Source: Closterium sp. NIES-65
Lineage: Eukaryota; Streptophyta; Zygnematophyceae; Desmidiales; Closteriaceae
DNA length: 64,000 bases
Direction of reading: 5' to 3'
Assembly: GCA_948144175.1 (NCBI GenBank)
Contig: CANXME010002518.1
Location: 137,479-201,478 of the forward strand
Position numbers and translations under genes: made by a program
Shown here: piece by piece, positions 12,665-56,462 of the stretch
Numbering within the stretch: the first letter of the stretch is position 1
Layout: every line of letters starts with the position of its first letter
Notes under the pieces: model-generated
What the model was told of the DNA's origin: nothing
Seen by the model: only the letters and a program-made list of their open reading frames with translations
Databases searched by the model: none

Positions 12665-12666
12665 AG

Positions 12667-23147: not shown

Positions 23148-23152
23148 GTCAC

Positions 23153-24362: not shown

Positions 24363-24962
24363 CTACTGCTGCACGTCGTTGTCGCCGTCGCCCACGTCTG
24401 CCAAGCGCACCTGGCCGTTTGCGACGGAGCACCGGTTGAAGGCCGGATATTGCAGCGCCTTCGTCAGGAAGTCGGCTGGCTGCTCAGCGGTCGGGATGTA
24501 CTGCAGCGAGAACTTCCCACGCTTCACCATGTGCTGCAGCCAGGCCTGTCGCCGCTCAATGCTTGTCAACCCCATGCCCTCGGCGACCGTGATGGCCAAC
24601 TTGTTGTCCACGCGCACGACAGTCGGCTTCCCAGCGTCCAGCTGTCGGAACTCGGCGAGGAGGAAGCGAAGGCGGCGTCCCTCCTTGCCAACTTCAGTGG
24701 CCGCCACGTACTCCGACTCGGTCGACGACAGCGTCGCACACTTGATGCGCTGGCTCGACCAGGAGACAGCGGCCCCACCGTAGACGAACACATAGCCACC
24801 CGTGCTCGTCATGTTCTGCTTGTCACCGGCGTCGTCGGCGTCCACGTAGCCGACCAGCTCCAGCGACTCAGGTCCACCGCCGAACTCCAGGGTGGTGTCA
24901 CGTGTGTTGGCGAGGTAGGCAAGGCAACGGTCTACCTCGCGCCAGTGCTCGTCGCTCCTCAC
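24363..24962 (-). CDS. long-LTR copia RNase H
   Basis: It degrades RNA in the RNA-DNA hybrid. Motifs are YVDADDAGD (first Asp), STESEYVAA (Glu), RVDNKLAI (Asp) and EQPADFLTKAL at the end. It is in the same frame as the reverse transcriptase upstream, separated only by TAG 25029-25031, so the Met at 24962 is not a native start. The conserved YL.NTRDT and LELVGYVDAD blocks are present. The stop at 24363 (TAG) closes the polyprotein. Confidence 0.88.
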   Translation of the reverse strand: MRSDEHWREVDRCLAYLANTRDTTLEFGGGPESLELVGYVDADDAGDKQNMTSTGGYVFVYGGAAVSWSSQRIKCATLSSTESEYVAATEVGKEGRRLRFLLAEFRQLDAGKPTVVRVDNKLAITVAEGMGLTSIERRQAWLQHMVKRGKFSLQYIPTAEQPADFLTKALQYPAFNRCSVANGQVRLADVGDGDNDVQQ

Positions 24963-25028
24963 CGTGAGGCCGCTCCCCAGCTTGCTGCAGGCGAAGGCGA
25001 TGTCCGGCCTCGTCGTCGTCGCCGCTAA

Positions 25029-26801: not shown

Positions 26802-26849
26802 GCCGAGGTGAAGGCCCCACCGAGCCTTGGGCTGCAGCTTGCCTCCACG

Positions 26850-28100: not shown

Positions 28101-28472
28101 GATGCCGACCAGCGAGCACGACGCCGTCTTGTCGTCCCGCCCCTTGCCGCCTGCAGAGGAGTCGGCGTCCTTCGCCGAGGTCGACGTTGTCGACTGCTTC
28201 TCCTTGCGCGGCTTGTTTCCTCCTCGACGAGGGCGATGACTGCCAGACCTCCCGCGGCCTCCCTTGGCGTCGTCGTCGTCGGAGTCACTGCGGTCGGGGC
28301 ACTTGTAGGAGAGGTGGTCGGGGTCGCCGCACAGCCAGCACTCCCGTCGTCAACCTCCTCCTCCTCGACTGCTGTCTTTGGCCGACATCTTCTTGTCGGC
28401 GTCCTTGCTCGGCTTCCAGCCACTGCTACCGCCACCGCCCGACTGCCCACGCTGCCCTGGTCGGCCTCCTTG
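28101..28472 (-). pseudogene. long-LTR copia nucleocapsid region with zinc knuckle
   Basis: The minus strand encodes ECWLCGDPDHLSYKCPD, a CX2CX4HX4C RNA-binding knuckle, then a basic Arg/Gly/Lys-rich tail that runs into the protease frame. A TGA a few codons before the knuckle and a TAG at 28473-28475 break the frame from gag. Confidence 0.75.
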
Positions 28473-29549
28473 CTACGTCGGGGCGACGAAGTTGGCCTGC
28501 GCCAAGAGCTCCTGGGATCGCTCGGCCTCATGCATCGCCTCGTCCTGCAGGATATACGAGGTCAAGTTGTCCTCGTTGAGAGTCGCCGTCGTGCTCGGCG
28601 CCATGGACAGCCGCTTTAGCAGGTTGTAGCTGCTCGAGAGTCCCTGCATGTCGTGGGTGACGTACGACGCTGTCGAGTACTGCGCGCCGGCCATCCTGAT
28701 GGTGGCGAGAATTCGCCGGGCCCGGTTGCAGTAGCCGGTCGCCGTCTCCTCGTCGCCCATGCTCAGATGCGTCAGCTGTCCCTCTATCTGAGCGATGAAC
28801 AAGTCGTCGGTGACTTGATAGGTCGACTCGATGAAGTTCCACGCCCGGTGGCCGGCGTCGAGGTACTCTCGGCACCACTTCAAGGCAATCTACACGCCCG
28901 GCGAGCAGCACCGCGAGATGACCGTGAAGGTCAACAACTGCACGGCGCGAAACTCTGCACGCAGGTCGGGGTGGTGCTCCCCCGGTGTCGCCACGGTCCC
29001 TCGAGCAAAGCCGATCAGCCCGGCCATCTCCAGCTGGGGCTCGATGGCTTCCTTCCAGGTGAGGATGTCTTGTCGACCAACGAGTGGCGGGGTGACCAAG
29101 ATCCTGTCCGGCGTAAACTTGAAGTAGCCGTAGCTCGGTGCGATCCCACCCGTTGTCACCTGGGTCGCCGACATCGGCGACAAACCACTTCGACGCCCAC
29201 CGGCGTCGCCCTGCGAGGAGCCTGCAGCCGCCGACGACTGCATCCCTCGCGCCTGAACGCCGCTGGCTTCACCGGAGTGTATCACACCTCGCTGCCTCGA
29301 CGTGTCTCCCGCACTGCTGCCGACTTGGCCACCTCCGGCGTTGACGCCCACGTCGACGCCGCCTTCGTTGGTCACCGGTCGAAGAGAAGCTGGTCGTGAA
29401 GAGGGATGTTCCATCGCCCACATGGAGCGGAGTCCTGCCTCAACGACTGCCCAGGGTATCGCCCCGTACTCCTGTGCCTCATGGCGTCTCCTCGCATCCT
29501 CCACCCGTCCCTCGAGTGTGTCCATCACCTCGGCGTCGCCTACGCGCAC
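28473..29549 (-). pseudogene. long-LTR copia gag
   Basis: Two open parts in one frame (29549-28893 and 28883-28476) are separated by TAG 28890-28892. The first has a Ser/Gly/Ala-rich N-terminus, then DILTWKEAIEPQLEMAGL. The second carries WCREYLDAGHRAWNFIESTY, DDLFIAQIEGQLTHLSMGD and YLLKRL-like YNLLKRLSMAP, the layout of a copia gag polypeptide. The Met at 29549 is about 100 bp inside the 5' LTR border and may be the true start. Confidence 0.8.
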
Positions 29550-29631
29550 GCTAGTGACTGCACGGCTGCCGGTCTACGAACACTATCGGTAAGTGCGAAG
29601 TCGGCTAGACTAAACTACGTCGCGGTGTAGT

Positions 29632-29648
29632 CCACGCTCACCGCACCA
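29632..29648 (-). promoter_or_regulatory. primer-binding site candidate of long-LTR copia (not initiator Met)
   Basis: The minus strand directly after the LTR reads TGGTGCGGTGAGCGTGG. It begins TGG as primer sites do but is unlike the initiator-Met site used by the other copia elements here. The matching tRNA is not known to me. Confidence 0.5.
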
Positions 29649-30732
29649 TGCGGAGATAACTGCTGCAACGGAAGCTAGGCTATGGGCTAGGCATGTGTGC
29701 TTGTTTGATCTCTGCATTCATTCACTTAGTCGTTTCCTTGTGTTCACGCTGCTTGCTAGTTCACGGGGAGAAATGGCAAGAGTTTCACTAGGAAAACATG
29801 ACAACAATGATAGCAACAACATTGGCATCACAGACTACATCAGTGCTAGCTAGGCTGCTGGTCGACCTCCAGCACAGCACGGTCGACCGCGCTCCAGCGC
29901 AGCAGCGCTCGCACCGCTCCAGCGTTGCAGAGTAGCGGTTCGCCAACGTTGCAAGTCCACGGTGTGCCAGCGCTGCACCAAGTCGGCTGCACAGCGTTGC
30001 ACCCGCACGACAACGGTACACGTGCTTCGCAGGTGCGCGCAGCTGGTTGGCGCTCCACACCTTGTCACGAGCACAGCGCAGACGCCTGGCAGATTCCACG
30101 CCAGTGACTGCGCCCACCAGCCACGTCGACCTCGGGATACCACCTCCGAGGTCAGCATCGCAGACTCCACCTTGGCGACACTTGCGCACGTCGCCCGGGT
30201 ATCCCGGTCGACCGGGCAACGACGCCTGGCCGACCAGCGCAGTCCGTAGCCGGCCACGCATGCCCGGCGTCCCCAGTCCGGCGTCCAGGCGCCCATGACA
30301 CCTTCCGAACCTCCAGGTCGGCGTCCCTCCTCCCAGGACGCCGACCAGACGCCCAGGTCGGTGTGTGGGCCCCCTGAGACGCCCAGGTCGGCGTCTGGAC
30401 CCCAGGGCGCCGTGCAGACGCCTAGGTCGGCGTCTGTCCTTCCAGAAGGCCGTGCAGGCGCCCACGACGTCGACCAGGCGCCCGGGTAGTCGTGGCGACG
30501 CCCAGCTCGGCGTCTAGCTTCCCAGGACGCCGTCCAGGCGTCCGGGACACCAACCAGGCGTCCAGGGCGGCGTCCTCCTGCTCGGCGCCCTCCAATCAGG
30601 CGCCCTCCAGCTGGGCGCCCTTGCAGTGGCCCCCGTGCCCACTGCTGCAGGTCGGTTGCAGCCCCCGCACATCCGACCACAAGGTTGGCTCCGCCCAAGC
30701 GAGGACGGGGCCTTACAACGCTCCCGTTGACA
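29649..30732 (-). repeat. 5' LTR of long-LTR copia (1084 bp)
   Basis: Same length as 23153-24236, with scattered substitutions (four in the first 90 or so bases). It ends CCCGTTGACA followed by the duplicated GTCAC. Confidence 0.92.
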
Positions 30733-30737
30733 GTCAC

Positions 30738-32074
30738 AGCATACATGGCAGCAAGGATAGCATCATAGTCAAGATCAAAGATGGCAACCCCCGCCCTAGA
30801 CAGATCTCCCCAGCGAGGGATCTCTGACGCCTCAGGGAACTGGTGACGCCACGCGTCCGTCAAGCGGCCGAAGCAGCGCTGGGTGGAGTGCGGGCCCCCG
30901 CACTACTCACCAGCGCGGTCGCCGGTACGGAGGACGTAAGTGCAGGGACCAGTACCCCCACCGCGCAGCGTACCACTCACGAAGCTGCTGAGGGGACAGG
31001 GTCTCACGACCGCGCTGCTGGTGCTGGCGCGGACCACCACCGGACCCACTCCTGTGCACAGAGTCGCGACCAGCTCCACCGCCGCCTCCGCCGCCGCCTC
31101 CGCCGCCTCCGCCACCTCCGCCACCTCCGCCGCCTCCGCTCCCTCCGCCACCACCGCCGCCTCCTCCACCTCCACTGCTGCCACCGCCGCCGCCACCCCC
31201 GCCACCACTCCCACCACCACCCCTACCCCCTCCACTGCCACCACCACCACCTCCACCACCCCCGCTAGCCCCTCCAGCTCCCTTGCCCCCCTTGCCCTTG
31301 CCGGTGCGGCGTCTCCCGCTAGGGGCGGACGCAGCGCCGACCTCGTAGAAACCAACGAGGTCGGCAGCAGCAGCAGAAGCAACAGAGGGCAAGAGGGGGG
31401 AGGGGGAACACCCCTCAAAGACGGGGGTGCGAGGGTCACCACGAGAGGCTCCTACAGCGACTATGCTCTTCTCTGCTGCTAGGAGGCGCTCCTCGAGGAG
31501 GTCAACGGTGAGTGTGGTCGGGCAAACTGAGAGGAAGTGGTCCCTGACTAAGCGAAGAGAGTCAGGGAGCCGTGTGACTATGTAGTAGAGGGTGATGTAC
31601 ATGGGGGGGGGGGGCTCTTGGCGCACAACTCAGTGGGAAGTGCAGCGCAGTAGCGAGTGTCACTAGTGTGGAGGTGCGTAATGAGGTCAGCGACTGTGGG
31701 AAAGACAGCAAGGTCAGGGAAGAGGTACGGTAGCATGAGGCGGCTCAGTGCAGCAGTGACAGGGAAGAGTAGCGTGCAACTACAGCGTCGTACAAGGTCT
31801 GAGCTCTCTTGTACTGGCTAAAGTGCGCACGCTTAGTGGTCGGTAAGTGGCGACGCACAGCAAGACGGGCAGCAGCATCGCGTGTGGCCCATTGTGAGCG
31901 AACAGTGCTGTCAGCAGTGGCAGGCGGGGCAGGGGAGGCAACAGAGGTGAGGTCGAACAGGGAGAGGCCGTCTGCCCTATTGCACTGGAGGAACAGCTGG
32001 AGGTCATCGACCTAGACCTCAAAGTCAACAGCACGACCCTTAGTATCAAAGGTAAGAACACTGGGGGTAGCCAT
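30738..32074 (-). pseudogene. copia copy 4 gag
   Basis: Start Met at 32074 (MATPSVLTF). It contains a TAG for Trp in EVWVDDL, a frameshift near 31750, a readable middle (RLPDSLRLVRDHFLSVCPTT), a long Gly-run (31070-31280 on the DNA) and SPQQLREWYAARW, then another frameshift before the Cys/His cluster. It ends at AAMYAVT, where the long-LTR copia inserted. It is the counterpart of 35391-36760. Confidence 0.82.
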
Positions 32075-33050
32075 GACTGCAGTGGCCTAGCAAGGAGTGA
32101 GCTCACCAGTCGAAGTAAGTAGGGCATGGGCGCGCCGGTAGGACGAGGAGCGGCTCGACGGCAGGGCGGCTCGGCTGCTAAGTGGCTCGGCTGCTGGGCG
32201 GCTCGACTGCTGGGCGGCTCGGCTGCTGGGCGGCTCGGCGGTTCGGCCACTGAGCGGCTCGGCGGCTCGGCTGCTGGGCGGCTCGGTGGCTCGGCTGCTG
32301 GGCGGCTCGGCTGTTGGGCGGCTCGGCGGCTCTACTGCTGGGCTGCTTGGTAGGGGCGGCGTTGGGGCCGTTAGGGGCGGCGACGGGGCCGCTTAGAGAG
32401 GGGAGCGGCGACGGGGCCGTGTAGTGGCGGCGACACGGCCGCTTAGAGGCAGCGACAGGGCTGCGTAGGGGCGGCAACGGGGCCGCTTAGGGTCGGCGAC
32501 GGGGCCGCTTAGGGGCAGCGACGGGGCCGCTAGGGGGCAGCGACGAGGCCGCTAGGGGCGGCGACGGTGCCGCGTATGGGCGGCGACGGGGCCGCGTAGG
32601 GTGAGAGGCGGCGACGGGGCCGATAGGGGCGGCGACGTGGCCGCTAGGGGCGGCGACGGGGCCGCGTAGGGGCGGCGACGGGGCCGCGTAGGGTGAGAGG
32701 CGATGACGGGGCCGCTAGGGGCAGCGACGGGGCCGCTAAGGGCGGCGACGGGGCCGTGGAGGGGCGGCGACAGGGCCGCGTAGGGGCGGCGACGGGGCCG
32801 CGTAGGGTGAGAGGCGGCGACGAGGCCGCGTAGGGTGAGAGGCGGCGACGGGGCCGCTAGGGGCGGCGACGGGGCCGCTAAGGGCGGCGACGGGGCCGCG
32901 TAGGGGCGGTAACAGGGCCGCTTGGGGGCGGCGACGAGGCCGCTCGGGGCCACTAGGGGCCTGGAAAGGGCGGCAAAAAGGCGCGCCTCGGGCAGGAGCG
33001 ACTGGCGCTCCGGTCAGAAAGGAAGTTTTCAGTGGTGGGCCCAAGGAAGC
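32075..33050 (-). repeat. tandem-repeat leader of copia copy 4
   Basis: 32150-32345 holds GGCGGCTCGGCTGCTG-type units. 32345-32960 holds about 25 units of GGCGGCGACGGGGCCGCGTAGG form, 18-24 bp each. The sense strand has almost no ATG (one, near 32126). Confidence 0.85.
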
Positions 33051-33066
33051 GTTCCCACTAGGGAAC
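33051..33066 (-). ncRNA. hairpin next to the primer site, copia copy 4
   Basis: GTTCCC-ACTA-GGGAAC, identical to 16031-16046 and the complement of 34394-34409. Confidence 0.6.
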
Positions 33067-33068
33067 CT

Positions 33069-33079
33069 GCTCTATACCA
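33069..33079 (-). promoter_or_regulatory. primer-binding site of copia copy 4
   Basis: The minus strand reads TGGTATAGAGC, one base short of the initiator-Met site. Confidence 0.8.
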
Positions 33080-33203
33080 TGTGAAGAATGAGGAATGAAT
33101 GAACTAGCACAAAGTTGGGTACAAGTAGGAAACCCTAGGAAACTGTACCCCATAGTGTCTACCCCACTATAGCCTACACAATCTATATAATATGAGTTTT
33201 ACA
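33080..33203 (-). repeat. 5' LTR of copia copy 4 (124 bp)
   Basis: The plus strand reads TGTGAAGAATG...GAGTTTTACA, three differences from 18269-18392. Confidence 0.92.
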
Positions 33204-33208
33204 GATAT

Positions 33209-33962
33209 GAACTTCCAGGACCAGGGACAGCTGATCGGAAAGTTCATTCACGGGCTAAGCCAGCCCATGCAACAGGAGGTACAGGTGCACGTGTTTGAGC
33301 TGGGGCCAGAAGCCATGCTGAAGGATGCGTACGAGATCATCAAACGCTTGGAAACCGGGCGTCGGCTCTATGAGGTGGAGCGCATAGTGGATAGAGGACC
33401 AGAGAGAAGGCGGCCGGCGTTGGCAACGACTTCCGCATACCCGGAACTGGAAGATAGAGGGAGAGAGGAAGCTCAACGCTTCCACAACTGCGGGCTACCA
33501 GGGCACCTACGAAGGGATTGTCATAACCTGGCGGCGTGTTCGTTGTGCAGGAGCCGCGATCATATGCGACGGGAGTGCCCAGGAGCGCCAGTCTGCGCTC
33601 GTTGCGGGCGGAGGCGCTACTAGGAGGCAGATTGCTACGAGAACCGAAGGGAGCGACGGGGGACAGAAGGAGGAGAGGATAGGCAGGCCACCATGGCGTG
33701 CCTGCGGGCGCAGCTAGCGGATCCAGAGGCAGCAGAACAGAAGCAACCCGAAATGGTGGCGCAGGAGGAGGAAGAGCCGAATGAGCCGGAATTCATGTTG
33801 ATGGCCCAGCTAGCCCGAGATCGGGAAGAATTGGGCTTGAGGGGAGCTGCGCAAAGACAGCTGTTTCGGGAGGATGAACGGCGGGAAGACGGGCCGAGGA
33901 GGAGACCAGCGAGAGTGTGGAGGCGGAAGGGGCAGTATATCGGCACCCGCAAGAATGAATGA
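33209..33962 (+). pseudogene. GY2 gag C-terminal part with zinc knuckles
   Basis: This continues gag in frame after copia copy 4. Three knuckle-like motifs follow in 33479-33640. The first has lost its first Cys (FHNCGLPGHLRRDC). The second is intact (CSLCRSRDHMRREC). The third has Tyr for His and a TAG (33621-33623) inside it. A Glu/Gln-rich tail to TGA 33960-33962 follows. In the third knuckle, His to Tyr (CAC to TAC) is again a C-to-T change. Confidence 0.8.
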
Positions 33963-34254
33963 TCTGTCAAGCTACGGTCCAAACGATTGAACCAGGGGCG
34001 ATCACAGTTGGGGGGTTAAAAGCTCAACGGGCGATTCTGGATACTGAGGCAGCGCATGTGCTTATCGTGAGGCGGTTGGCGGAGAAGTTACAGCTGCACA
34101 AGCCAGGGCGACTGATAGCAGAACGATACCTGCTGATGACCGCAGACCGCAGGGAAGCGAAGTGGATGCCCAAGACCTGGCAGTCCATGGTGCTGATGCT
34201 TAGTCGAGGGACCCCGGAGGAATGCACGCTGAGGGTATACAGCGGAGTGTCAGA
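33963..34254 (+). pseudogene. GY2 aspartic protease, N-terminal part
   Basis: Read one frame off from gag. AILDTEAAHVLIV aligns with the retropepsin ILDTGA box, with Glu for the invariant Gly (34038-34056), which should destroy activity. It continues LAEKLQLHKPGRL to LRVYSGVS, is cut by copia copy 5, and resumes at 41669 (ESEDFDLLIEGG). Confidence 0.7.
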
Positions 34255-34380
34255 TGTCAGATTTATATGACATAGCTACTGTAGGTTATAGTGGGGTAGC
34301 ACATATGGGGTACAGCTTTCTGGGGTTTGTACTTGTACCCAACTTTCCCTTAGTCATTTCATTCTCGTTCTCTTTTCTCA
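34255..34380 (+). repeat. 5' LTR of copia copy 5
   Basis: TGTCAGATTTATATGAC...TCTTTTCTCA. TTTATATGA near its start is the only TATA-like stretch. Confidence 0.93.
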
Positions 34381-34391
34381 TGGTATTGAGC
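34381..34391 (+). promoter_or_regulatory. primer-binding site of copia copy 5
   Basis: TGGTATTGAGC, an initiator-Met-type site. Confidence 0.82.
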
Positions 34392-34393
34392 AG

Positions 34394-34409
34394 GTTCCCT
34401 AGTGGGAAC
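34394..34409 (+). ncRNA. hairpin next to the primer site, copia copy 5
   Basis: GTTCCC-TAGT-GGGAAC in sense orientation, 6-bp perfect stem, a few bases after the primer site. Confidence 0.6.
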
Positions 34410-35390
34410 TGTTCCTAGGGCCCACCGACTTTTTTTTCCTGCCCGGGGCGTGTCTCGCCCCTGCCCGAAGCGCGCTTAGGGTCGCGCCTTCCCTAGCGGC
34501 CCCGTCGCGTCGCCCTTAGCGGCCAATCGCGCCGCCCTTAGCGGTTCCGTCGAGCCGCCCTTCGCGGCCGCGTCGCGCCGCCCCTTCGTGGCCCCATCGC
34601 GGCCCCGTCGTACCGCCCTCAGCGGCCCGTCGCCGCCCTCCCCCTGTGGCGCGTCGCCGCCCTTTCACCTACGGCCCCGTCGCCGCCCTTACAACTGCCC
34701 CGTCCCTGCCCTTGCAGCGGTCCCGTCGCCGCCCTCCCCTTACGGCCCGTCGCCTCCCTCCCCTTACGGCCTGTCGCCGCCCTTACAGCGGCCCCGACGC
34801 CGCCCTTATAGCGGCCCCGTCGCCGCCCTTACGGCAGCCCCGTCGCCGCCCTCCCCTTACGTCCCGTCGCCGCCCTTTCAGCGGCCCCACCGCCTTCTTC
34901 AGCGGCCCCGTCGCCACCCCTGCAGCGGCCTCGACGCCGCCCCTTCAGCGGCCCTCCCGCCGCCTCCTCTGTGGCCCCGTTGCCGCTCACTTCAGCGGCC
35001 CCGCCGCCCCTCGCGGCCCCGCCTTCCTTAGCGGCACAGCCGCCCAGCAGCCGAGCCGCCGAGCAGCCGAGCCGCCCAGCAGCCGAGCCGCCAAGCCGCC
35101 CAGCAGCCGAGCCGCCAAGCCGCCCAGCAGCCGAGCCGTCGAGCCGCCCAGCAGCCAACCGCCGAGCCGCCGAGCCGCCGAGCAGCCGAGCCGCCAAGCA
35201 GCCCAGCCGCCCAAGCCGAGCCGCCGAGACGCCCAGTCACCGAGCCGCCGAGCCGCCCAGTTGCCGAGCCGCCGAGCCGCCGGACTGCCCGAGCCGCCGG
35301 ACTGCCCGAGCCGCCCTGTCCGGTAAGAGCAGCGCCTCTGTCACTGCACTGCCCTTACCCTACCGTTCGCGCTGCTAGTCTACTGCTGTC
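34410..35390 (+). repeat. ATG-free tandem-repeat leader of copia copy 5
   Basis: 34480-35030 carries CCCGTCGCCGCCCTTACGG-type units. 35035-35310 carries CCGAGCCGCCCAGCAG units. I find no ATG from the primer site to the gag start at 35391, although the leader is nearly 1 kb long. Open frames in all phases are compositional (Pro/Ser/Arg/Ala). Confidence 0.85.
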
Positions 35391-36767
35391 ATGGCTACCC
35401 CTAGTGTCCTCGCTTTTCACGCTGAGGGTCGGGCCATTGACTTTGACGTCTGGGTAGATGACCTGCAGCTTTTCCTACAGTGCGATAGGGCAGACGGTCT
35501 CTCCCTCTTTGACCTCACCTCTTGCGCCTCTCCTGCCCCTGCTGCTGATGCTGACGCCACTGTTCGCTCACAGTGGGCCACACGCGATGCTGCTGCACGT
35601 CTTGTTGTGCGTCGCCACCTGCCTACCTCTGAGCGTGCGCACTTTAGTCAGTACAAGAGTGCTCAGACCTTGTACGATGCTGTAGTTGCACGCTACTCCT
35701 CCCCTGCCAGTGCTGCACTGAGCCGCCTCATGCTACCGTACCTCTTCCCTGACCTTGCTGCCTTTCCCCCAGTCGCTGACCTCATTACGCACCTCCGCAC
35801 TAGTGACACTCGCTACCGCGCTGCGCTTCCTGCTGAATTCTGCGCCAAGAACCCCCCCGCCATGTACATCACCCTCTACTACATAGTCACCCGGCTCCCT
35901 GACTCTCTTCGCGTAGTCAGGGACCACTTCTTCTCAGTTTGCCCCACCACTCTCACCGTTGACCTCCTCGAGAAGGCCCTCCTAGCAGCAGAGAAGAGCA
36001 TAGTAGGTGTAGGAGCCTCTCGTGGTGACCCTCGCACCCCCATCTTTGAGGGGTGTTCCCCCTCCCCCCTTTTGCCCTCTGTTGCCTCTGCTGCTGCGGC
36101 CGACCTCGTTGAGCTTGAGTCGGTCGGTGCGGCGTCTACCCATAGCGGGAGACGCCGCCCTGGCAAGGGCAAGGGGGGCAGGGGCGCTGGAGGAGCTACC
36201 GGGGGCGGTGGAGGAGGCGGTGGAGGCGATGGAGGGGGTGGGGGTGGCGGTGGGGGTGGTGGCGGGGGTGGAGGTGTCGGTGGCGGCAATGGAGGCGGAG
36301 GCGGCGGCGGCGGTGGCGGTGGGAGCAAAGGTGGCGGAGGTGGCGGCGGTGGAGGAGGCGGTGGCGGTGGAGGTGGAGCTGGTCGGGGTGGCGCTGCACA
36401 GAGGGTCGGCTCCGGTGGTGGTCAGCGCCAGCAGCAGCAGCACCTGCAGCGCACCGGTGACATCCCCCCCCCCCCTCAGCAGCTCCGTGAGTGGTACGCT
36501 GCACGCCAGTGGGGTGGGGGTACTGGTCCGTGCACCTACGTCCTACGCACCGGCAACCGCGCAGGTGAGCAGTGCGGGGGTGCTCACTCCACCCAGCGCT
36601 GCTTTGGCCGCCTGACGGACGCTTGGCGTCACCTGTTCCCGGAGGCCACTGAGGTCCCCCGCTGGGGCGAGCTTTCTAGGGCGGGAGTAACTGTCTTTGA
36701 CCTTGACTTTGATGCTATTCTTGCTGCCATGTATGCTGTGACTATTAGTGATGAGGGTGACTGTTAC
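35391..36767 (+). CDS. copia gag, small-LTR family (complete)
   Basis: It starts at the first ATG after the leader (MATPSVLAFHAEGRAIDFDVW). It has a copia gag helical region (LFLQCDRADGLSLFDL, LPYLFPDLAAFPPVADLITHL, YIVTRLPDSLRVVRDHF), then a basic GRRRPGKGKGG patch, a Gly run of about 70 residues (36190-36395), a Gln run, and PQQLREWYAARQW. Instead of a standard CCHC knuckle it has C-X13-C-X3-H-X4-C (codons at 36531, 36573, 36585 and 36600). This is likely the nucleic-acid-binding element, by inference. It runs in frame into the protease. Confidence 0.88.
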
Positions 36768-38279
36768 CGGTGTTTTCCGCCCGACCCGAGCATTGAGACT
36801 GCTGCTCTAGGTACTGGTGAGGCTGCTGCTCTAGGTGCTAGCGAGGCTGCTGCTCTTGGTGCTCGTGCGTCTGCTCCCTCAGGTGCTGGTGAGTCTGCTC
36901 TCTCAGGTACTGCGTCGGCTTCGGCCTCCCACACCTTCACCCTTGACTCGGGGGCTTCTCGCTCCTTCTTTCGAGACCGCACCACACTCACGCCGCTTGG
37001 CCGGCCACTTGCAGTCTCTCTGGCAGACCCCTCTAGGGGTCCTGTCCTTACTCACTACTCCACTGTCCTCCCGTGTCCGGCGGCCCCCTCTGGCACCCTG
37101 TTTGGTCTTTACCTCTTCTGGTTCTCTACAAACTTGGTGAGTGGTGCTGACCTACAGGATGCGGGGGTTCACCACTTCACTCCTGCGAGTCAGCGGGTGA
37201 CCCACTGCACGGACGCTCGGACAGGCCGACACCTGGCCACGTTTATACGTCGGCCGGGGTCGAGCCTGTACACACTGACCACTGAGTCTCCTCCAGTCAC
37301 TACGTCTGGTCAGGTAGCTGCGTCAGGTCAGGTGTTTGCTGCAGCGTCCAGGTCTGGTCCTGAGTCTGCCCCCTGCTCGTGTCGCCTCCTGTCTCACGAG
37401 ACTCTCCTCTGGCACCACCGCCTTGGTCACCCCTCCCTGCTTCGTCTCCGAGGCATGGGCTCTCGTGTCCTTGTCTCTGGTCTTCCCCGGTCCCTCCCTC
37501 CCCTTCCTCCTGGGCCTGGCCCTACCTGCGTCCCCTGTGTCGAGGGGCGGCAGCGGGCTGCCCCTCACTCCTCCCAGTTTCCTCCGACAGAGGCCCCGCT
37601 GCAGACGCTTCACATGGACGTGTGGGGCCCGGCCCGCGTCCGTGGACAGGGTCACGAGCGCTACTTCCTGCTGGTGGTTGACGAGTACTCGCGTTACACC
37701 ACAGTCTTCCCCTTGCGCAGCAAGGGTGTTGATCGACTGGATCCGCGCAGCTCGTCTCCAGCTCAGGCAGAGCTTCAGCTCAGACTTTCTTGTTCTGCGT
37801 CTGCACTCTGACAGAGGCGGAGAGTTCTCCTCTGGCCTTCTGCGAGGCTACTGTCGTGCACGAGGCATCCGCCAGACCTTTACGCTTCTGGACTCTCCAC
37901 AGCAAAATGGGATTGCTTAGCGCCGCATTGGCATGGTCATGGATGTCGCTCGTACGTCCATGATGCATGCGGCTGCCCCCCATTTTCTGTGGCCGTTTGC
38001 GGTTCGGTACGCAGCGCATCAGATCAACCTTCACCCCAGGGTCTCCATGCCGGAGACCTCCCCAGCGATGCGTCTGCGTTCCGTGTCTGGGGATCTCGGG
38101 CGTTTGTCCGCGACTTGTCTGCGGACAAACTGTCCCCTCGCGCTGCTCCTTGCGTCTTCCTTGGCTTCCCCCCTGACGCGCCAGGGTGGCAGTTCTACCA
38201 CCCCACCTCTCACCGTGTTCTGTCCTCCCAGGACGTCCCGTTAGACGAGTCGGTCCCCTACTACCGTCTCTTCCCCTAA
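36768..38279 (+). pseudogene. copia protease and integrase with two compensating deletions
   Basis: The protease box LDSGASRSFFRD is intact (36942 onward), as are HHRLGHPSLLRLRGM, CVPC and HMDVWGP. Near 37727 a 14-bp deletion between GGTG repeats shifts the frame in the integrase after LRSKG. A TAG at 37918-37920 replaces Glu of GIAER, the catalytic Glu. Near 38067 a 25-bp deletion brings the frame back. TAA at 38277-38279 replaces Tyr. The integrase is therefore non-functional. Confidence 0.88.
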
Positions 38280-39500
38280 CGCACTCCGTCCCTCCCCCCG
38301 CCACCGCTCTTCCTTGTGCCAGGTCCCCCCCCGGTAGACCCCCCCCCCCCTCAGGGTCCTGCCCCTTCAGGTGTGTCCGAGGTAGACGAAGTCGAGCCTG
38401 TCGAGGTTACTCGTGACTCTGGTGCTGCTGAGGGTGCTGAGCCTGGGGGTGCTGACTCTGGGGGTGCTGAGCGTGTGGGTGCTATTCCTGGGGGTGCTGA
38501 GCCTGAGGGTGCTACTACTGGGGGTGCTGAGCCTGGGGGTGCTGAGCCTGGGGATGCTACCACTAAGGGTGCTGAGACTGGGGGTGCTGAGCCTGGGGGT
38601 GCTACGCCTGGGGGTGCTGAGCCTGGGGGTGCTACGCCTGGAGGTGCTGCGCCTGGGGGTGCTGAGCCTGAGGGAGCTGGGCCTCCTCGTGTGGCGTCTG
38701 GCGGTGCTGGGCCTGGAGGTTCTCCGGGTGCTTCGTCTTGGCGGGAGCCACTCTCTCCACAAGAGCTGCGCGAGTGGTTTGCCCGGCGCTGGAGGCGTGC
38801 TGCTGGAGCTGGAGGTTCTTTGGGTGCTGAGGGTGCTAGTGCCGCGGGTTCTGGAGGTGCTCGTACTGGGAGTACTAGAGCTGCTGGGCCTGCGGGAACG
38901 ACTGGAGCTGGAGCTGCTGAGGGTGTTGGCGCTGAGGCTACTGCTGTCGGTCCTAGAGGCGGTCCTGCTGGGGGTGCTACTGGTGCTGCTGGAGGTACTG
39001 GAGCTGGGGGTGTTGCTGGCGCTAGTGCTGCCGCTGGGGGTACTGGTGCTGTCCCTGCTGTGTCTGGAGTCGCCGCGCGGCCTCGGCCGTACTTCGTTCC
39101 GCTCCTTCAGCAGGTTCTTGGTCTCCCGCCTTCAACTGCTCCTCCTCCTCCCTTAGAGTGTCCACAGCCTGTCGTGTCACAGTTACAATTATAGCCGGCC
39201 TCCCCACTGCCTGCTCCTTCTCCCTACACTGGTCCTACTGGAGGTCTTGCTGAGCGTCGTAAGCCTGCGTCTTGCCCTGCTTCGCCTGTCTGTCCTGCTC
39301 GCACTAGTGGTCGTGCTCCGCGTCAACGTCCTCCTCCTGTCCCTGGCACACACCGGATGTCTCTACGTCCGTCCACTGCTCCTCTGCGTGCCCCTTTGCC
39401 TTCTCCTCGTGAGTCCTCTCTTCCTGATCTTGCCAACCAGGAGTTGGTCTCTCTTCGTGCTGCCAGTCCTACTGTCACGCGTCTCCTTGCTACTGTCGTG
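38280..39500 (+). pseudogene. copia integrase-RT linker
   Basis: Pro-rich start, pentapeptide array (38430-38690), SPQELREWFARRW, Gly/Ala/Thr-rich stretch, and ARPRPYFVPLLQQVLGL. TAG at 39192-39194 stands for Gln of copy 4. It is the same frame as gag and RNase H. Confidence 0.8.
38430..38690 (+). repeat. pentapeptide-coding tandem repeat, copia copy 5
   Basis: About seventeen 15-base units (CCTGGGGGTGCTGAG and variants) encode G-A-E-P-G-type repeats. Confidence 0.88.
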
Positions 39501-40740
39501 AGTGACCCTTCCTTTGAGTCCACTGCTGCGTCTGCCCTAGTTGCTGAGCTCTTCGACTTTGCTGCTCGCTGTCGTCTAGACTACGCTGCTAGTCTTGTCG
39601 GTGAGTCTGAGTCTGTCTGTCCTCTGTCCGTCGGGGGTGAGTGTGCCCTTGGCACGGACGTCCTTGAGGACAGGCAGGAGGAGTTCCAGTGTTTGGCCGC
39701 TGCTTCACCTCATCTCGTGTCCGTACTGCTTACCCCTGAGGGAGACCTGGATGCACTTGACATCCCGACTCCGCGCTCTTACGCGGAGGCGATAGAGGGT
39801 CCCTACTCCTCTCAGTGGCAGGCAGCTATGGACACAGAGATGGCTTCCTGGAAGTCCACAGGCATCTACGTTGACGAGGTTCCCCCGCCTGGGGCGAACA
39901 TCGTCAGTGGCATGTGGATTTTCAGGGTGAAGCGGCCGCCGGGATCTCCGCCTGTCTTCAAGGCGCGTTACGTGGCTCGTGGCTTCAGTCAGCGGCAGGG
40001 AGTTGACTACTTTCAGACCTTCTCTCCCACCCCGAAGATGACCACTCTACGGGTACTGCTACACATAGCTGCTCACCGCGACTACGAGCTGCACTCTCTT
40101 GACTTCAACACTGCTTTCTTGCAGGGCAGCCTGCACGAGGAGATCTGGCTGCGTCGCCCACCTGGCTTCACTGGGTCTTTTCCTCCTGGCACCCAGTGGA
40201 GCCTATGGTGGCCAGTCTACGGTCTCCGCCAAGCGCCCCGTGAGTGACACGACACACTGAGGACTACACTTGCGGCTCTTGGGTTTGCTCCTTCTACAGC
40301 CGACCCGTCGCTGTTTCTGCGCACCGACACCTCTTTGCCGCCGTTCTACATCCTCGTGTACATCGACGACTTGGTCTTTGCCACAGCTGACACTGCTGGA
40401 CTCGCCCACGTGAAGTCCGAGCTGCAGAAGAGGCACACGTGCACAGACCTGGGTGAACTGCGCAGCTACCTTGGCTTGCAGATCACCCGGGACAGAGCAC
40501 GCCGCACCATTACCTTGACTCAGTCACACATGGTGCAGCAGGTCCTTCAGCGCTTCGGCTTTACGTACTCCTCGCCTCAAGCCACTCCTCTGCCTACTCG
40601 CTACTCGCTCTCAGCTCAACCTCCGGATGAGTCTGTAGAGTCGAGTGGCCCGTACCCAGAGCTTGTTGGCTGCCTCATGTACCTGATGACCTGCACACGA
40701 CCTGACCTTGCATACCCTCTTAGCATTCTCGCACGCTATG
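39501..40740 (+). pseudogene. copia reverse transcriptase
   Basis: SQWQAAMDTEMASWKSTG opens the domain. FRVKRPPGSPPVFKARYVARGFSQ-type residues (partly quoted), VDYFQTFSPTPKM, LDFNTAFLQG, VYGLRQAP and LVYIDDLVFA follow. The catalytic box is YIDD, where copy 4 has YVDD. TGA at 40245-40247 replaces Trp of PREWH. It makes cDNA from the element RNA in the particle. Confidence 0.88.
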
Positions 40741-41330
40741 TTGCTCCTGGGAGACACAGACCGGAGCACATGGCTGCAGCGAAGAGGGTGTTGTGCTACT
40801 TGTGCAGTACGTCGGGCATGGGGCTTGTGCTTGGAAGGCAGAGTCCAGTGGTCCTCACTGGGCACGCAGACGCTTCTTGGGCTGACGACCAGGCTACGCA
40901 GCGGTCGTCACAGGGTTACACCTTCAGCCTTGGTTCCGGCTCTGTTTCGTGGCGGGCTACCCGCTCGTCTTCTGTTCTCGGCTCCAGTTGTGAGGCTGAG
41001 ATCTACGCAGGGGCCATGGCTGCACAGGAGCTATGCTGGCTCACCTACCTGCTGACTGACCTCGGAGAGCCGCCTCGTTCTCCTCCAGTGCTGTACGTAG
41101 ACAACAAGGCCATGCTGGCCTTGTGTCGAGAGTAGAGACTGGAGCACATTGCTCTCCGCTACTTCCTTGCTCGTGAGCTACAGCAGCGTGGTCAGCTGCG
41201 CCTTGCGTACGTGGCCTCTGAGGCCAACACTGCTGATATCTTCACCAAGGCACTTGCGCCTTGTGATCATCAGCGCTTCTGTACTCAGCTGGGTCTTGTG
41301 CCTTCCTTGCCTCACTTGCTCACCCCTTGA
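40741..41330 (+). pseudogene. copia RNase H
   Basis: It shows HADASWADD (first Asp), CEAEIYAGAMAAQEL (Glu), YVDNKAMLALC (Asp) and EANTADIFTKAL. TAG 41133-41135 stands at the His of REHRLEH in copy 4, and a short piece around it is deleted. The polyprotein ends at TGA 41328-41330. Confidence 0.87.
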
Positions 41331-41537
41331 CCTTGTTTGTACTGTTGCATATATATATACACCTGCTCTTGCTTGTCTAGCCTTATATATATATGTAATC
41401 CTGCATGTGAACTGGCCTTGTGGCCTTGAACTTGTGTTTGGAATGTGTGGTGACTTTGTGATCCACCCTGAGCTTGCTTTGCTTTGCTTGACTGGTCTTG
41501 TGACCCCTTGTTCTCCCCCACTTTGCCTATGGGGGTG
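41331..41537 (+). other. 3' untranslated region and polypurine tract of copia copy 5
   Basis: It contains TATATATATAC runs at 41349-41398, a block shared with the mini-copia and copy 4 (GGAATGTGTGGTGAC), and TATGGGGGTG just before the LTR. Confidence 0.75.
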
Positions 41538-41663
41538 TGTCAGATTTATATGACATAGCTACTGTAGGCTATAGTGGAGTAGCACATATGGGGTACAGCT
41601 TTCTAGGGTTTGTACTTGTACCCAACTTTCCCTTAGTCATTTCATTCTCGTTCTCTTTTCTCA
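41538..41663 (+). repeat. 3' LTR of copia copy 5
   Basis: TGTCAGATTTATATGAC...TTTTCTCA, followed by TSD TCAGA. Confidence 0.93.
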
Positions 41664-41770
41664 TCAGAGTCGGAAGACTTTGACTTGCTGATAGAGGGTG
41701 GAGTACCTTTTCGGAATAGGATCAACGATATGCATGTGGGAGGAGAAAGTGCAGATCCGGGTGCGCTACT
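41664..41770 (+). pseudogene. GY2 protease C-terminal part
   Basis: It resumes in frame with 34254 (ESEDFDLLIEGGVPFRNRIND). A frame change before about 41770 leads into the methyltransferase frame. DLLIEG may correspond to the second protease motif. The assignment is by position and weak similarity. Confidence 0.5.
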
Positions 41771-42987
41771 GGGAGGATGATGGCCCCATTGGGACACTGC
41801 CGGTGCGGTTCGTGCGAAGGGAACCAAGGGAATCTTACCAGTGCACTGAGGCGCAGCTATGCGAGGAACTTGTGAGGATGCTGGCGGCGCCATCAAGGGA
41901 AGGCGAGGGGGAAGCAGATCTGAAGTCGCTGTGTACGAACACGAAGAGGCTGCTGGGACCCACTGTAGTGCTTGAGCTTTTTGGAGGCATAGGTATAGGG
42001 CCGGCGGCGCTGCTGAAGTCGGGAGCACACGTGGATTTGTGGATTCTGGTGGAGAATGACATGGAGGCGGTGAAGATGGCATGGTGCCACGCGGATAAGC
42101 TCCAGAAAAGGTATCCGCATCATTTTTGCTCTGTTTCTATGGAGGAGAGTGCGCGGTGCGGAACCTGTGATATACGCCATATATACAAGAGTACCATACG
42201 GCGATGGGGAAGGATCGACGTGGTAATCGCATGGTGGGAGTGACAAGGCTACTCACGAGCGGGGGCAGGCAGAGGCATGAGGGATGAGAGGAGCAGCCTG
42301 TTCCGGGAGTTGGTGTGAGTGTTAAGGCCGATAAAGCGGGTGCAATGGGACGTCTTGTACATTGTGGAGAATGTAGATATGGAAGGGGATGCCAGAGAAC
42401 AGGTGCAAGTGGCACATGAAGAGGTCATGGCGGCCCTTGGGCCTGGTGTAGTGGCAAATGGAGCGCAAGCGGGGAGCAGGACTCACCGAGTCCGCCGATA
42501 CTGGGCGAACGGGGTGTGCGAGGCAACGCTACAGTGCCGTCTCTCACTGTTGGAACGACCAGTACCGCTGCTGGTTGAACACATTCTAGAGCTAGGAAGG
42601 ATGCCGGCCCCAGTGAGGCATCCCGACCATCCGACGCAGTTTCCGTGCAACGAAATGGGGAAGCCGAGATAGGCATGGCCGACGTTCGTATCATACGAAG
42701 AAGCGGTCGCCTTCAAGATGCACGATGGGACACCAGGACCAGGCATGGTGTATGAATGCACCGCGCAAGAGTGGCAGGAGCCGACGGTGTTGGAGAGGGA
42801 ACTAGCTATGGGGTTCATGAAAGATGCAACGGCTCACCCGGAGGTGACAGAGGCAGAGATGAGGAGGGCGCTGGGAAGGGCTATGGATCTCAACGTCTTG
42901 ATGTACCATTCAATCTGGATGTACCATTCACAACTGCCGTGGAAGCGGAAGCGTGATAAAGCAGCGGCGGTCCAACCCCCAATATAA
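41770..42987 (+). pseudogene. C5 DNA cytosine methyltransferase domain inside GY2
   Basis: One frame carries the motif order of C5 methyltransferases. Numbering codons from 41698, motif I (AdoMet loop) is VVLELFGGIGIG at 90-101. The adenine-binding acidic residue is in LVENDMEA at 118-125. Motif IV region is DVVIAWWE-stop-QGYSRAG. The TGA at 42241-42243 is exactly where the catalytic Cys of the Cys-Gln pair belongs. RDERSSLFRELV follows. Motif VI ENV is at 42367-42375. A motif VIII-like HRVRRYWANG lies near 42484-42513. A motif IX/X-like LERELAMGF...RRALGRAMDLN lies at 42790-42900. Further stops are TGA 42316 (Arg likely), TAG 42670 and TAA 42985. It would methylate cytosine at C5; here it is dead. 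Confidence 0.83.
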
Positions 42988-43500
42988 AGGGCGGCAGCGA
43001 AGGAGGCACTGGCGCGGGCCATGCTAGGGGAGATTCAAGACAATGAGAAGGTGCAACATGAGGGAGGACATTCGTTGGAAATGAGATGGGTGTACTTGTG
43101 GGAGGAGGATGATGAAAGGTCGGCTCTGTATGCGGAGCAAACAAAGATCTGGCTCTCAGGTGACCGGGAGGAGGCGGCGGTGGATACGAATTGAGAAGAC
43201 TTCAGTTGGCTCGAGGAAGCCATTGAGAGGTAGAGAAGTAGGGAGAGTTATGAGCGAGAGTTCGGGTCGCGGGAATTCGCCCTGATGGTAGCAACAAATG
43301 AGGAGGATAGGGCAGTGACGGAAGGGCAAGGCGTAGAGGAAGCAGAGGGTGGGAGTACGGCACCGCAAGAGCCCACGGTGGCAGGAAGCTTACATTGGTC
43401 GGATGAGGGGGAAAGCCAGCATCGGTAGAAAGCGGGAGAGAAAGAGTAGGAGATAGGGGAAGGCATGGCGTAGGAGGACGCGGCAGAATTGAAGTAGGTG
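42988..43500 (+). pseudogene. GY2 spacer between methyltransferase and reverse transcriptase
   Basis: Same frame as the methyltransferase. It is rich in Glu, Arg and Ala (REEAAVDTN, EREFGSREFALMVATNEE) with several stops (TGA near 43192; TAGs near 43231, 43426, 43448, 43471 and 43496). No domain recognised. Confidence 0.5.
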
Positions 43501-44393
43501 CTAGTTAAGTACCGGCCGACCTTTGTGTATACTTGGAAGGAAGTGGGAAGATGGAACATGGCGGAGGTCACCATAGAGCTAACCACGGAGGTACCCATGT
43601 ATCAGCGGAGGCGACAGATGACAGTGGAGGAGATACAGATGTGCACGGAGAAATGTCAGGAGCTTATGTAGGCGGGCTTCATCCGAAAGTCTAGCTCGGA
43701 GCGGCGGCGACGGTGGTGGCGGCACGGATGGATTTGATGAGGCAGGGGCTGTCTAAGCGCATGTGCGGAGATTACCGAGGACTGTTTCAAGTCTCTATCA
43801 TGAAGAGGTACCAAACACCAACGTCGGACGAGATATTTGATAAGCTAGCAGAGGCGCTAGTCTTCTCCACGTTGGACCTGCGGCAGGGGTTCAACTAGAT
43901 CCCCATAGCGGAGGCAGACAAGAGAAAGACGGCCTTCCATGGGCCAGACGGGCAGTACGAGTGGAACACCCTGCCGTTCGGCTTGAAGTCAGCCTCCCCT
44001 AAGTTCCAGCGGGTCATGGATTAAGTGCTGCGGAACGTGTAGAACGCCGCGTGCTACATCGACGACGCCATCGTGTTCAACACTGATAGTCACTCGCATG
44101 TGAAAGACATGGAAGCCTCATTGAACGCCATCCAGAGTGCGGGCCTGACCTGTCACCCGGGAAAGTGTAAATTCAGGCAAACAACCATGGAGTACCTGGG
44201 GTTCGAAGTGGAGGGGGGGAAAATTGGGATCCAGAAGGCGAAGGTGGAGGTGCTGGATCGGGTAGCCATGCCGAAGGACATGAGCACGCTGCGAGCACTG
44301 CTAGGTTTCCTGAATTACTATAAGAAGTTCGTGCGGAACTTCAATTGTCGGGCCACCGCGTTGAACCACCTACTGAGGGAAGATCGTAAGTAG
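43501..44393 (+). pseudogene. GY2 reverse transcriptase
   Basis: The N-terminal flank MYQRRRQMTVEEIQ...AGFIRKS is followed, after a frame change near 43700, by MCGDYRGL, FSTLDLRQGFN-stop-IPI, WNTLPFGLKSA, FQRVMD-stop-VLRNV-stop-NAACYIDDAIVF. CYIDD is the catalytic box. EYLGFEV, then LGFLNYYKKFVRNF, the connection region, come later. Three internal stops (TAG 43897, TAA 44023, TAG 44041, approximate) stand at usual Gln positions. Confidence 0.85.
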
Positions 44394-44836
44394 GAATGGG
44401 GACTGGACCAGTAGAAAGCAGTGCAGGACCTCAGGGAGCGGTGAAGAATGGGGCAGTGCTAGAACTGCCGAAAGCAGACCTGCCGTTTACCCTGTACACG
44501 GACTGGAGTAGCGCGGGCATGGGTGCGGTCCTAGCACAGATGAAGGGGGAGGTGGAGAAGGTAGTGGCCTTCGCAAGCCGTAGCTGTAACGTGGCAGAAG
44601 CCAACTATTCGTCGTGCGAGCGGGAGGGGCTGGCGGTGGTGTGGGCAGTGAAGCACTTTCAGGTGTACTTGCAAGGCAGGAAATTCACGTTGGTGACAAA
44701 CCACCAGCCGCTACTGTGGCTGATGCAGACGCCGGATCTCATGCAGCGTAATGCCAGATGGGCAATGAAGCTGCAAGAGTACGATTTTGAGATCAAGCCC
44801 GGCAAGACCACGCAGCATGTGGATGGTCTCTCATAG
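44394..44836 (+). pseudogene. GY2 RNase H
   Basis: After a further frame change near 44430, LYTDWSSAGMGAVLAQ (first Asp), SSCEREGLAVVWAVKHF (Glu) and LVTNHQPLLWL follow, with Asn for the usual Asp of TDH. IKPGKTTQHVDGLS marks the end. TAGs at about 44391 and 44412 precede the domain. Confidence 0.83.
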
Positions 44837-45700
44837 AAATCACCAGCCATGCAGCTGTCAGCATGCCTGATGGCAATGGCAAAGGAAGCAGACCACGGGC
44901 GAGCGTGGGGGGAGGTGAAAGGAGGCTCCACGGACATTTGGGAAGACCAGGCAGCTCTAGCGTGGATCCAGGGGGTAACAATGGAGGAGGGAGCAGTACC
45001 CGCCAGAGTACGTGCTAGGGGTGAGCACTACCGCTGGTTCAAGGGGCAAGTGCAGCTGTGGACAGGGGAAGGTTGGAAGCACATGCCGCCCCCAGGTGAA
45101 CGGGAGGGCATCATACGCAAAGTACATATGAATCTGGGACACTACGGGCCACCGAGAACTCAGCAGCTAGTGCAGACAGGGTGGTGGTGGGCAGGCATGC
45201 GTGGACTGGGTGTGGAAGTGTGAGACATGCTGTAGGAACCGAGCTGTGCTGGAGAGAGAAAAGGCAGAGTTGACAGCCGCTTCCCATTGTGAGTTTGGGT
45301 TACAGATGGTCACTGGTCATAGCGGGAGAACTACCGGTCACCACAAAGGGGAGAAGGTACATTATGCTGATGGTGGAACATGTCAGCAAGTGGGCAGAAG
45401 CGAGGCCACTGGTGCACAAGACGGCGGACGCGGTGGCCGAGGCGTTTGAAGAGATTGTGATAACACGGCTGGGGGCATGTGGAGAGGTACTGACAGACCA
45501 GGGAACGGAGTTCAAGGGGGCATTCGAGGAACTACTGAAAGCCACCGGCATCAGGCATCGCAGCACATTGCGCTACCACCTGCAGAGCGACAGATTGACG
45601 GAGCGGTTTGTGCAGACAGTGAAGAAAGGGCTAAGGGCCTATGGAGAAGAGCATAAGAGGGACTGGGATAGGAAGCTCTGCTGAATTAAGGCGGGATATC
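44837..45700 (+). pseudogene. GY2 integrase zinc domain and core
   Basis: HMNLGHYG and KCETC form the HHCC zinc domain in two frames (a shift near 45205). The core then reads WSLVIAGELPV (the first catalytic Asp position reads Val), VLTDQGTEF (second Asp) and SDRLTERFVQ (Glu). Stops close the frame near 45684. FYLLFGKEP follows in the next open piece. Confidence 0.8.
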
Positions 45701-46268
45701 GGTTCAGCAAGCAGGCAGCGTTGAGGGGCGTGTCCCCGTTCTACCTGCTGTTTGGCAAGGAGCCAGTAATGTCGGTGGGAGCTCCTAGGCTCCTGCTGGA
45801 TGTGGTAACCACAGGCTCAGCGGAGAAGTGAGTGGCGCGCGGGCGGCGTACCTGAGGCAGCTGCTGCCAGCAGTGATGGAAAACCTCCATGTCGCACAGC
45901 TCTGGGACATCGAGCGATACAAGCAGCGGCAGGAGGCAGGCGGAAAGGGGGCAAGGGCAGGGGTATAGGAGGAAGAGGAGGTGTACCTAAGGAGGCAGCG
46001 GAAGCATGCGCTGGACGTGGGTCTGTCACAGCAGCGATGGGCCGTGATGGAAGTGAAGCCATTTGGAGTCATAGTCCTGGAAGATGGGAAGGGTAAGCGT
46101 GTGGCAGACCATGTGACTAACGTGGCCAGGATTCTCACTCAGAAGGAGAAGGCAGGACCCAAGGGGCCCATGACGCGCGCGAGGACGGCTGCAATGCGTC
46201 ATGGGAGGGGGCAGGAAGGGTCTGAACAGATGCAGGACAAGGGCAAGGGCAAGGACAAAGTGGGGTGA
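45701..46268 (+). pseudogene. GY2 integrase C-terminal tail
   Basis: Frame 45981-46268 encodes WAVMEVKPFGVIVLEDGKG, similar to the integrase C-terminal barrel (GPF-like), then a basic tail (KGPMTRARTAAMRHGRGQ) ending in TGA. No chromodomain is visible, unlike GY1. Confidence 0.65.
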
Positions 46269-46529
46269 GGAGACTAAGGACACCGCTGGGGAAAATCGGG
46301 GGGGGGGGGGGGGGGGGGGGGGGTGGAGGAAGGAAAAAGGTGATGAAAACGTCAAACAGGAGAGGATGGCAGTGGCAGGAAAGGATGGCAGGGGTAGAAC
46401 TGTCTTACCAGGGAAGGGAACATGAAGGCGGTGAGGAGGTTTCCGACATAGGAATGCTGATGCCCTTCAGATAGGAGACCATATTAGTCTTGCCGAGCTC
46501 ACAAAGGAGCGCATGGATGACTTACAGCA
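46269..46529 (+). other. non-coding interval after GY2, with a 26-base G run
   Basis: 46298-46323 is an uninterrupted run of 26 G. The rest is purine-rich (possible polypurine tract and remnant LTR) up to the degenerate copia that begins near 46484. I see no LTR match to the region left of the GY2 gag. Confidence 0.6.
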
Positions 46530-55633: not shown

Positions 55634-56462
55634 TGTTATAGTCACAAGAGGCTCCAATGTGCCTAAAACGAAAGATAGAGTGCACAGCCGGATTTCTGCA
55701 CAGCGGCTTCAAACGTTCATAGCGTTCTGGTCACAACTTCAAATGACCTGATTCAACTTGGATCTGGAGCGTCTCAACGTCGCCTACAATAGGCAATTTA
55801 GATCGCACAATTTCACCAAGTATTGACGACACAGTGTCGGTTTGAACGAACGGCACTATGGCAGCCACTATAGTCTTAGAACACAAAATAGGAAGAGATA
55901 TGAAGAGTTACGAGTTGGGAATGACTCCCAGCTCCTACAAACCCCAAGAGCCGAGGTACAGTGATGTGGAACAGTGCCACACTGTCCCCAACCACGAAGG
56001 GTCTCGAAACTACCCTTCACTAGGGCCTACACCAAGTGAAATGTTACACTACACAAAGTAATGTAACTATCTTCAATATCTTGAGGTGTACCCTTTTGGC
56101 GAGCTTCGAAATCACTTGAGGCTTGACACCAAGGCTCGGGCTCTTCATCACAAACTCATCCTTGAGTTCTTGATGGGTCTGCTGCACACACCTGCGACAC
56201 ACCGAACGTTCGACACAGGACAAAATAGAAACCGCGCACGACAAAATAGAAACCGCGCGCGAGACACAAACGACCGCGTAACACGGGTCTAGCGATAACT
56301 CGCTATTGACTCAACACACACACTCGACATCATGACTCAACATTCATACACAATTATAAGCATGAAATATATATTATCCCATGCCCTCATACCATTCCAT
56401 ACACACACACATGCATGCACACGGACAACAAGCCGAGTGCAAACCATAGGGTTGCACCAACA
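55634..56462 (-). repeat. 3' LTR of family 2 copia
   Basis: The plus strand reads TGTTATAGTCAC...TTGCACCAACA. The adjacent AACCCCCCCTCGG is the complement of the polypurine tract. Confidence 0.95.

Follow-up and report, generated by a model that had tools for sequence, protein, structure and literature searches.

A DNMT3-like methyltransferase domain in a decayed Ty3/gypsy element of Closterium, probably of the KnitGypsy-Dnmt3 kind

The window analyzed here, a stretch of 64,000 nucleotides from Closterium sp. NIES-65 (contig CANXME010002518.1, positions 137,479 to 201,478), contains a Ty3/gypsy element, GY2, which almost certainly encodes a C5 cytosine methyltransferase domain between its protease and its reverse transcriptase (RT). 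Based on a profile of relatives, the domain proper occupies 41959–42906 on the plus strand, within the Ty3/gypsy polyprotein. We propose that GY2 represents a Ty3/gypsy element with a DNMT3-like domain at this position, that it is of one kind with KnitGypsy-Dnmt3, and that the domain methylates cDNA; for this explanation as a whole, we set a probability of about 0.5. The copy in the window is itself dead, being interrupted by in-frame stops and two Copia insertions. It is unable to make the enzyme, unbroken versions of which exist among the relatives.

A preliminary description of this DNA had named the C5 methyltransferase from its motifs, and a profile search bears out this identity. With a profile of 10 relatives, from which the window was excluded, the domain gave a significant match of 483 bits over profile positions 2–317 of 326, and the whole frame gave 492 bits, against at most 5.2 bits in shuffled sequences (567 of 1000 shuffles had a listed score). 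With the same profile, the four open pieces searched apart scored 168.8, 126.7, 114.8, and 30.6 bits, and in a six-frame search of the window the domain was the sole match at E ≤ 10, with no further methyltransferase match anywhere outside it. The single open reading frame pieces, too weak alone, had no PF00145 match in a Pfam scan. Read through, with X at the stops, the domain matched PF00145 at E = 0.0011 (18.8 bits, below the cut-off of 22), and the best phmmer match of the window read-through in PDB (E 0.12) is also too weak alone. The identity was settled by the profiles of relatives. Moreover, the region 42076–43368 is 70.9% identical to the Closterium protein P0002 over 433 amino acids (tblastn). 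As described earlier, all of the listed motifs follow in order in one plus-strand frame (translation 41695–43200); however, this frame is closed by four stops, three inside the domain (42241, 42316, and 42670) and one at 42985. The proposed extent of 41770–42987 contains the domain, but its first ~190 bases (41770–41958) are the protease C-terminus and a linker. The preliminary description was silent on the pseudogene state of the copy and on the departure of motif IV from PCQ/PCN.

Three protein searches, one of which scored the 7996 candidates sharing most words, yielded 54 distinct related proteins. Fifty-two of these are Closterium gene models, from strains NIES-53, -54, -65, -67, -68, and Naga37s-1; the remaining two are P0034 and P0035 (Klebsormidium nitens). 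As database gene models, the relatives may hold false introns or deletions. PF00145 was matched at E ≤ 0.01 by 10 of 10 cut-out relatives and by 14 of 16 whole gene models, the exceptions, P0028 and P0035, each being without motif IV. The Pfam scan of domain order took in 16 gene models, and the longest order was that of P0023 (1928 amino acids), which reads CCHC, methyltransferase, RT, RNase H, and integrase. P0025 and P0034 show CCHC, protease, and methyltransferase (PF00145 of P0034 falls short of the cut-off at 20.6 bits); in P0036 and P0043, sub-cut-off protease matches lie ahead of the methyltransferase. Furthermore, the domain precedes RT in P0023, P0024, P0026, P0027, P0031, P0041, and P0042. 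Rather than lacking the domain, the relatives therefore carry it after the protease (four models) or before RT (seven models). Among the relatives, the full order emerges only when several gene models are combined; the window shows it within one element, where tblastn recovers the order gag-protease-RT-RNase H-integrase. The setting between protease and RT was thus correctly described, but a 7.4-kb Copia element (34255–41663) now parts the protease from the methyltransferase.

To this domain order is added the covariation of methyltransferase and RT identities (Mantel r = 0.86, a value reached in none of 2000 permutations) across 11 sequences, namely the window and 10 of the 18 proteins that include an RT stretch, among which near-copy pairs raise the correlation. 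Such covariation is what a single entry of the domain, followed by inheritance with the element, would produce. Between subfamilies, domain identity is 40–57% in most pairs, so that about half of the residues differ. It could be argued, from the empty single-piece Pfam scans, that the resemblance arose by chance or that a host gene fragment merely landed in the element. This is exceedingly improbable: the relatives have the domain in the same gene model as a protease or an RT, and we rejected the reading because the profile score, set against the shuffles, and the co-inheritance with RT rule it out.

The class nearest to the domain by sequence profile is DNMT3A/DNMT3B, and its predicted fold is nearest to DNMT3 among solved structures. 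With the family profile, DNMT3A scored 65.8 bits and HhaI 30 bits lower. The cellular enzymes differ in that DNMT3A has PCN in motif IV (SPCN), and DNMT3A and DNMT3B are not known to be fused to a protease or RT. Among retrotransposons, KnitGypsy-Dnmt3 of Klebsormidium nitens has a Gypsy Pol open reading frame with a Dnmt3-related domain, a Ka/Ks under 0.2, and reported DIRS-like repeats (de Mendoza et al. 2018, PMC5890265), and PMC6338049 notes that charophytes have retrotransposons bearing a methylase. The K. nitens protein P0035, which we infer to belong to this published family, matches Closterium P0025 in its protease (29% over 118 amino acids, E 3e-13) and carries after it a methyltransferase C-terminus (50% over 52 amino acids, E 2e-11), the middle of the domain being missing. 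The charophyte connection drawn in the preliminary description therefore holds, and of the two possibilities it offered, membership of the known group or a further capture, membership is better supported because P0035 has both the protease and the C-terminal part of the domain in matching order. The Closterium element is probably of the KnitGypsy-Dnmt3 kind in another algal class, and a shared origin, most simply through one old capture, is very likely. Both elements have a Dnmt3-related domain in the Gypsy Pol of a streptophyte alga, next to a homologous protease (that of P0035), whereas their hosts are Klebsormidiophyceae for KnitGypsy-Dnmt3 and Zygnematophyceae for GY2. DIRS-like repeats are reported for the former, and no long terminal repeat (LTR) of GY2 was found between the flanks searched. 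Similarly, SymbioDIRS-Dnmt3 of Symbiodinium (PMC5890265) has a DNMT3-type domain inside Pol, but it is of the DIRS class with a tyrosine recombinase. An rve integrase is present in the window and in P0023, P0026, and P0027, and no tyrosine recombinase occurs among the Pfam matches of the window and the scanned relatives.

A separate capture by Closterium elements, with a host DNMT3 or a phage-type enzyme as its source and independent of KnitGypsy, is quite unlikely given the protease and domain C-terminus that P0035 shares in order, the predicted fold nearest DNMT3, and the 30-bit deficit of HhaI with the retrotransposon profile, though one phage relative is about equal with HhaI and DNMT3A (86.5 and 83.7 bits). 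What speaks for it is that the CQGxSRAG block of motif IV is like the viral-contig one and unlike the PCN of DNMT3A; the likeness is partly produced by selection because the viral-contig scan used the search pattern CQGxS[RK]AGxG. In addition, three phage genes read SPCQGFSFAG, SPCQGLSIAG, and SPCQGFSSSG (tblastn), and the best viral relative reached 79 bits with the family profile. SPCQGFS is found in 10 of 10 IMG/VR relatives, which are not independent loci (L002, L004, and L005 resemble one another across the 250 residues compared, as do L007 and L008). These viral and phage enzymes, with a similar motif IV block and comparable scores, differ from the Closterium domain in their PCQ motif IV and form their own group with support of 100/99 in an unrooted tree that included a single DNMT3 row without an outgroup; one of them is equally close to HhaI and DNMT3A. 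Against the phage collection, P0001 found 106 records at E ≤ 1e-3, all below 60% identity and none covering 80% of P0001. A search of viral contigs with P0034 gave no match, and the 65 pattern matches in GTDB genome contigs included no relatives. Between host and phage-type enzymes the scores overlap, and the tree, lacking an outgroup, does not discriminate between the two origins.

As for function, the conserved catalytic residues and the co-inheritance with RT favor an active role of the domain in the element cycle, as judged from conservation at the level of protein sequence. The catalytic Cys of motif IV is present in 29 of 29 relatives and the motif VI Glu in 32 of 33; the latter is retained in the window copy as well. 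In working copies, the domain would be made in a fixed ratio with RT and could be packaged with it in the virus-like particle. Following what de Mendoza et al. suggest for DIRS elements (PMC5890265), the packaged enzyme would then methylate cytosines in the newly made double-stranded cDNA ahead of integration. Host maintenance enzymes would keep the mark, so that a new copy would arrive looking like silent "self" DNA. The benefit may be less damage to the host together with a shield from responses to unmethylated foreign DNA. Methylation of new cDNA before integration falls, by our analysis, slightly short of an even chance. In yeast, SymbioDIRS-Dnmt3 gives de novo CG methylation (PMC5890265).

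Several observations weigh against the proposed explanation. Regarding the placement, P0023 has neither a Pfam protease match nor a DTG protease motif, and none of the 16 scanned gene models holds a Pfam protease, PF00145, and RT together. Regarding the class, viral-contig methyltransferases scored 52.9–79.3 bits with the family profile, as high as DNMT3A. Regarding the origin, the K. nitens link is a single protein, P0035, with motif IV deleted, a database E of 0.077, and no Pfam match at 0.01, and the acquisition in K. nitens was called independent by its authors, in contrast to dinoflagellates and not to Closterium (PMC5890265). Regarding the activity, the KnitGypsy domain produced no methylation in yeast, a result called inconclusive by its authors (PMC5890265). 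Motif IV bears on activity too: Pro-Cys occurs in 0 of 29 relatives, and activity therefore cannot be assumed. This count covers the 29 of 54 family proteins that span motif IV, the 25 that do not being left out, and the 29 are not as many independent loci, with apparent near-copies in P0026/P0027, P0004/P0009, and P0029/P0042. The letters are ECQ in 25, SCQ in 2, DCQ in 1, and SCR in 1. To our knowledge, Pro-Cys is near-universal in motif IV of C5 methyltransferases. The swap looks old in the lineage because the distant P0034 also has ECQ; this protein (1195 amino acids, 7 member sequences) has a gag-protease-methyltransferase layout.

The altered motif IV is compatible with a different substrate or with a silent binding function. 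If the domain modified RNA, whether genomic RNA, primer tRNA, or an RNA-DNA hybrid, and not finished cDNA, the Glu that replaces the motif IV Pro in 25 of 29 relatives might find an explanation, and a packaged enzyme would presumably meet RNA first; RNA methylation was also raised for SymbioLINE-Dnmt by de Mendoza et al. (PMC5890265). However, fold and sequence are nearest to the DNA enzymes of the DNMT3 class, and DNMT2, a tRNA enzyme, scored only 19.7 bits with the family profile, which makes such a role unlikely. Equally improbable is a non-catalytic domain kept as a DNA-binding or integration-targeting module. The loss of the motif IV proline in all 29 relatives would suit this module, whereas it would be surprising, without catalysis, for the Cys to be retained in all 29 relatives and the Glu in 32 of 33 at the divergence seen between most subfamilies. 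Finally, we consider it conceivable, albeit doubtful, that one ancient capture, before the split of Klebsormidiophyceae and Zygnematophyceae or with spread between them, gave rise to a retrotransposon-specific class in which Glu-Cys replaced Pro-Cys and substrate or chemistry changed, for example through tuning to an RNA-DNA hybrid or to cDNA within the particle.

GY2 spans ~28 kb on the plus strand. With P0023 as the tblastn query, gag, methyltransferase, RT, RNase H, and integrase are traced to 46217, and P0025 and P0022 add the protease. The first part of gag (17817–18268; P0023 residues 83–234, 71% identity) ends in the 5-bp target duplication GATAT (18264–18268) of the first nested Copia-type insertion, 18269–33203. 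This insertion lies on the minus strand, its type and orientation being inferred from a minus-strand tblastn match at 18916–18620 to the Copia part of P0022; its ~124-bp terminal repeats (18269–18392 and 33080–33203) are 98% identical, and it holds further repeats. Read by eye, the gag frame continues across the insertion site as in P0023, and the second part of gag, with CCHC zinc knuckles recognized by their pattern in the translation, follows at 33204–33896 (P0023 residues 233–468, 51%). The protease lies at 33941–34254, as seen in the translation and by tblastn with P0025 residues 452–556 and P0022 residues 211–279; its active-site triplet is DTE, and DTG is found in P0025, P0034, P0036, and P0043. 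The protease now stands apart from the methyltransferase because the second Copia insertion (34255–41663, plus strand) sits between them. This insertion has ~126-bp LTRs, 98% identical as a pair, a 5-bp target duplication, TCAGA, and, at 41016–41300, a match to the Copia portion of P0022. The end of the protease and the linker to the methyltransferase occupy 41664–41958 (P0022 residues 289–337, 90% at 41698–41844; P0023 from residue 524). The decayed DNMT3-like domain, delimited by the 10-relative profile and also matched by P0002 in tblastn, follows, and its first stop falls at the position of the motif IV cysteine of relatives, where the window reads VIAWWE*QGYSRAG. The linker to RT, also decayed, lies at 42907–43479, the P0002 match extending to 43368. 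The decayed RT (43480–44438) has a frame change near 43701 and is matched by P0023 residues 997–1317 in two pieces (RVT_1, 2.7e-08). RNase H (44414–44833; RT_RNaseH, 5.4e-35; P0023 from residue 1310) precedes the integrase, which runs to the end of pol (44837–46217; rve, 3.1e-09, core match within 45274–45681; P0023 to residue 1928). No LTR pair fitting GY2, nor other terminal repeats, occurred between the flanks searched. In GY2 from 41664 to 46270, the observed/expected ratios are 1.26 for TpG and 1.32 for CpA (whole-window TpG, 1.15), an elevation that would fit decay of methylated cytosines.

Additional repeats were observed in the window. The first Copia insertion contains two direct repeats of 1087 bp with 96% identity (23153–24239 and 29649–30735), perhaps another nested LTR element, and just inside the same insertion G+C-rich minisatellites with 8-base spacing and longer arrays lie at 32116–32950. 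Outside GY2, a second gypsy-type RT-integrase stretch at 8177–11827 shows 28–39% identity to P0023 (tblastn), and a repeated segment with inverted copies lies at 11900–13716, 55634–56432, and 60765–62063, the longer pieces being 91–97% identical.

The diverged Closterium subfamilies, the co-inheritance of the domain with RT, and a motif IV that is never Pro-Cys are new. Among the literature matches listed, with subscription papers and supplements outside the scope, no title concerned methyltransferase-bearing elements in Closterium, and the accessible portions of PMC6338049, PMC13398078, PMC13419823, PMC11096116, and PMC10407611 (on Closterium genome size) mention no such Closterium element. 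The range of retrotransposon-borne DNA methyltransferases is thereby extended from one streptophyte alga to several strains of Closterium, a member of the Zygnematophyceae, the class closest to land plants, and one old origin is suggested where previously only one lineage was on record. Genome work already makes use of Closterium strains from the NIES collection (PMC10407611), and cDNA methylation could therefore be measured in them. The conserved Glu-Cys motif offers a direct handle on whether the enzymes work. If they do, the motif IV proline is dispensable; if they do not, a parasite has kept the methyltransferase fold for another use.
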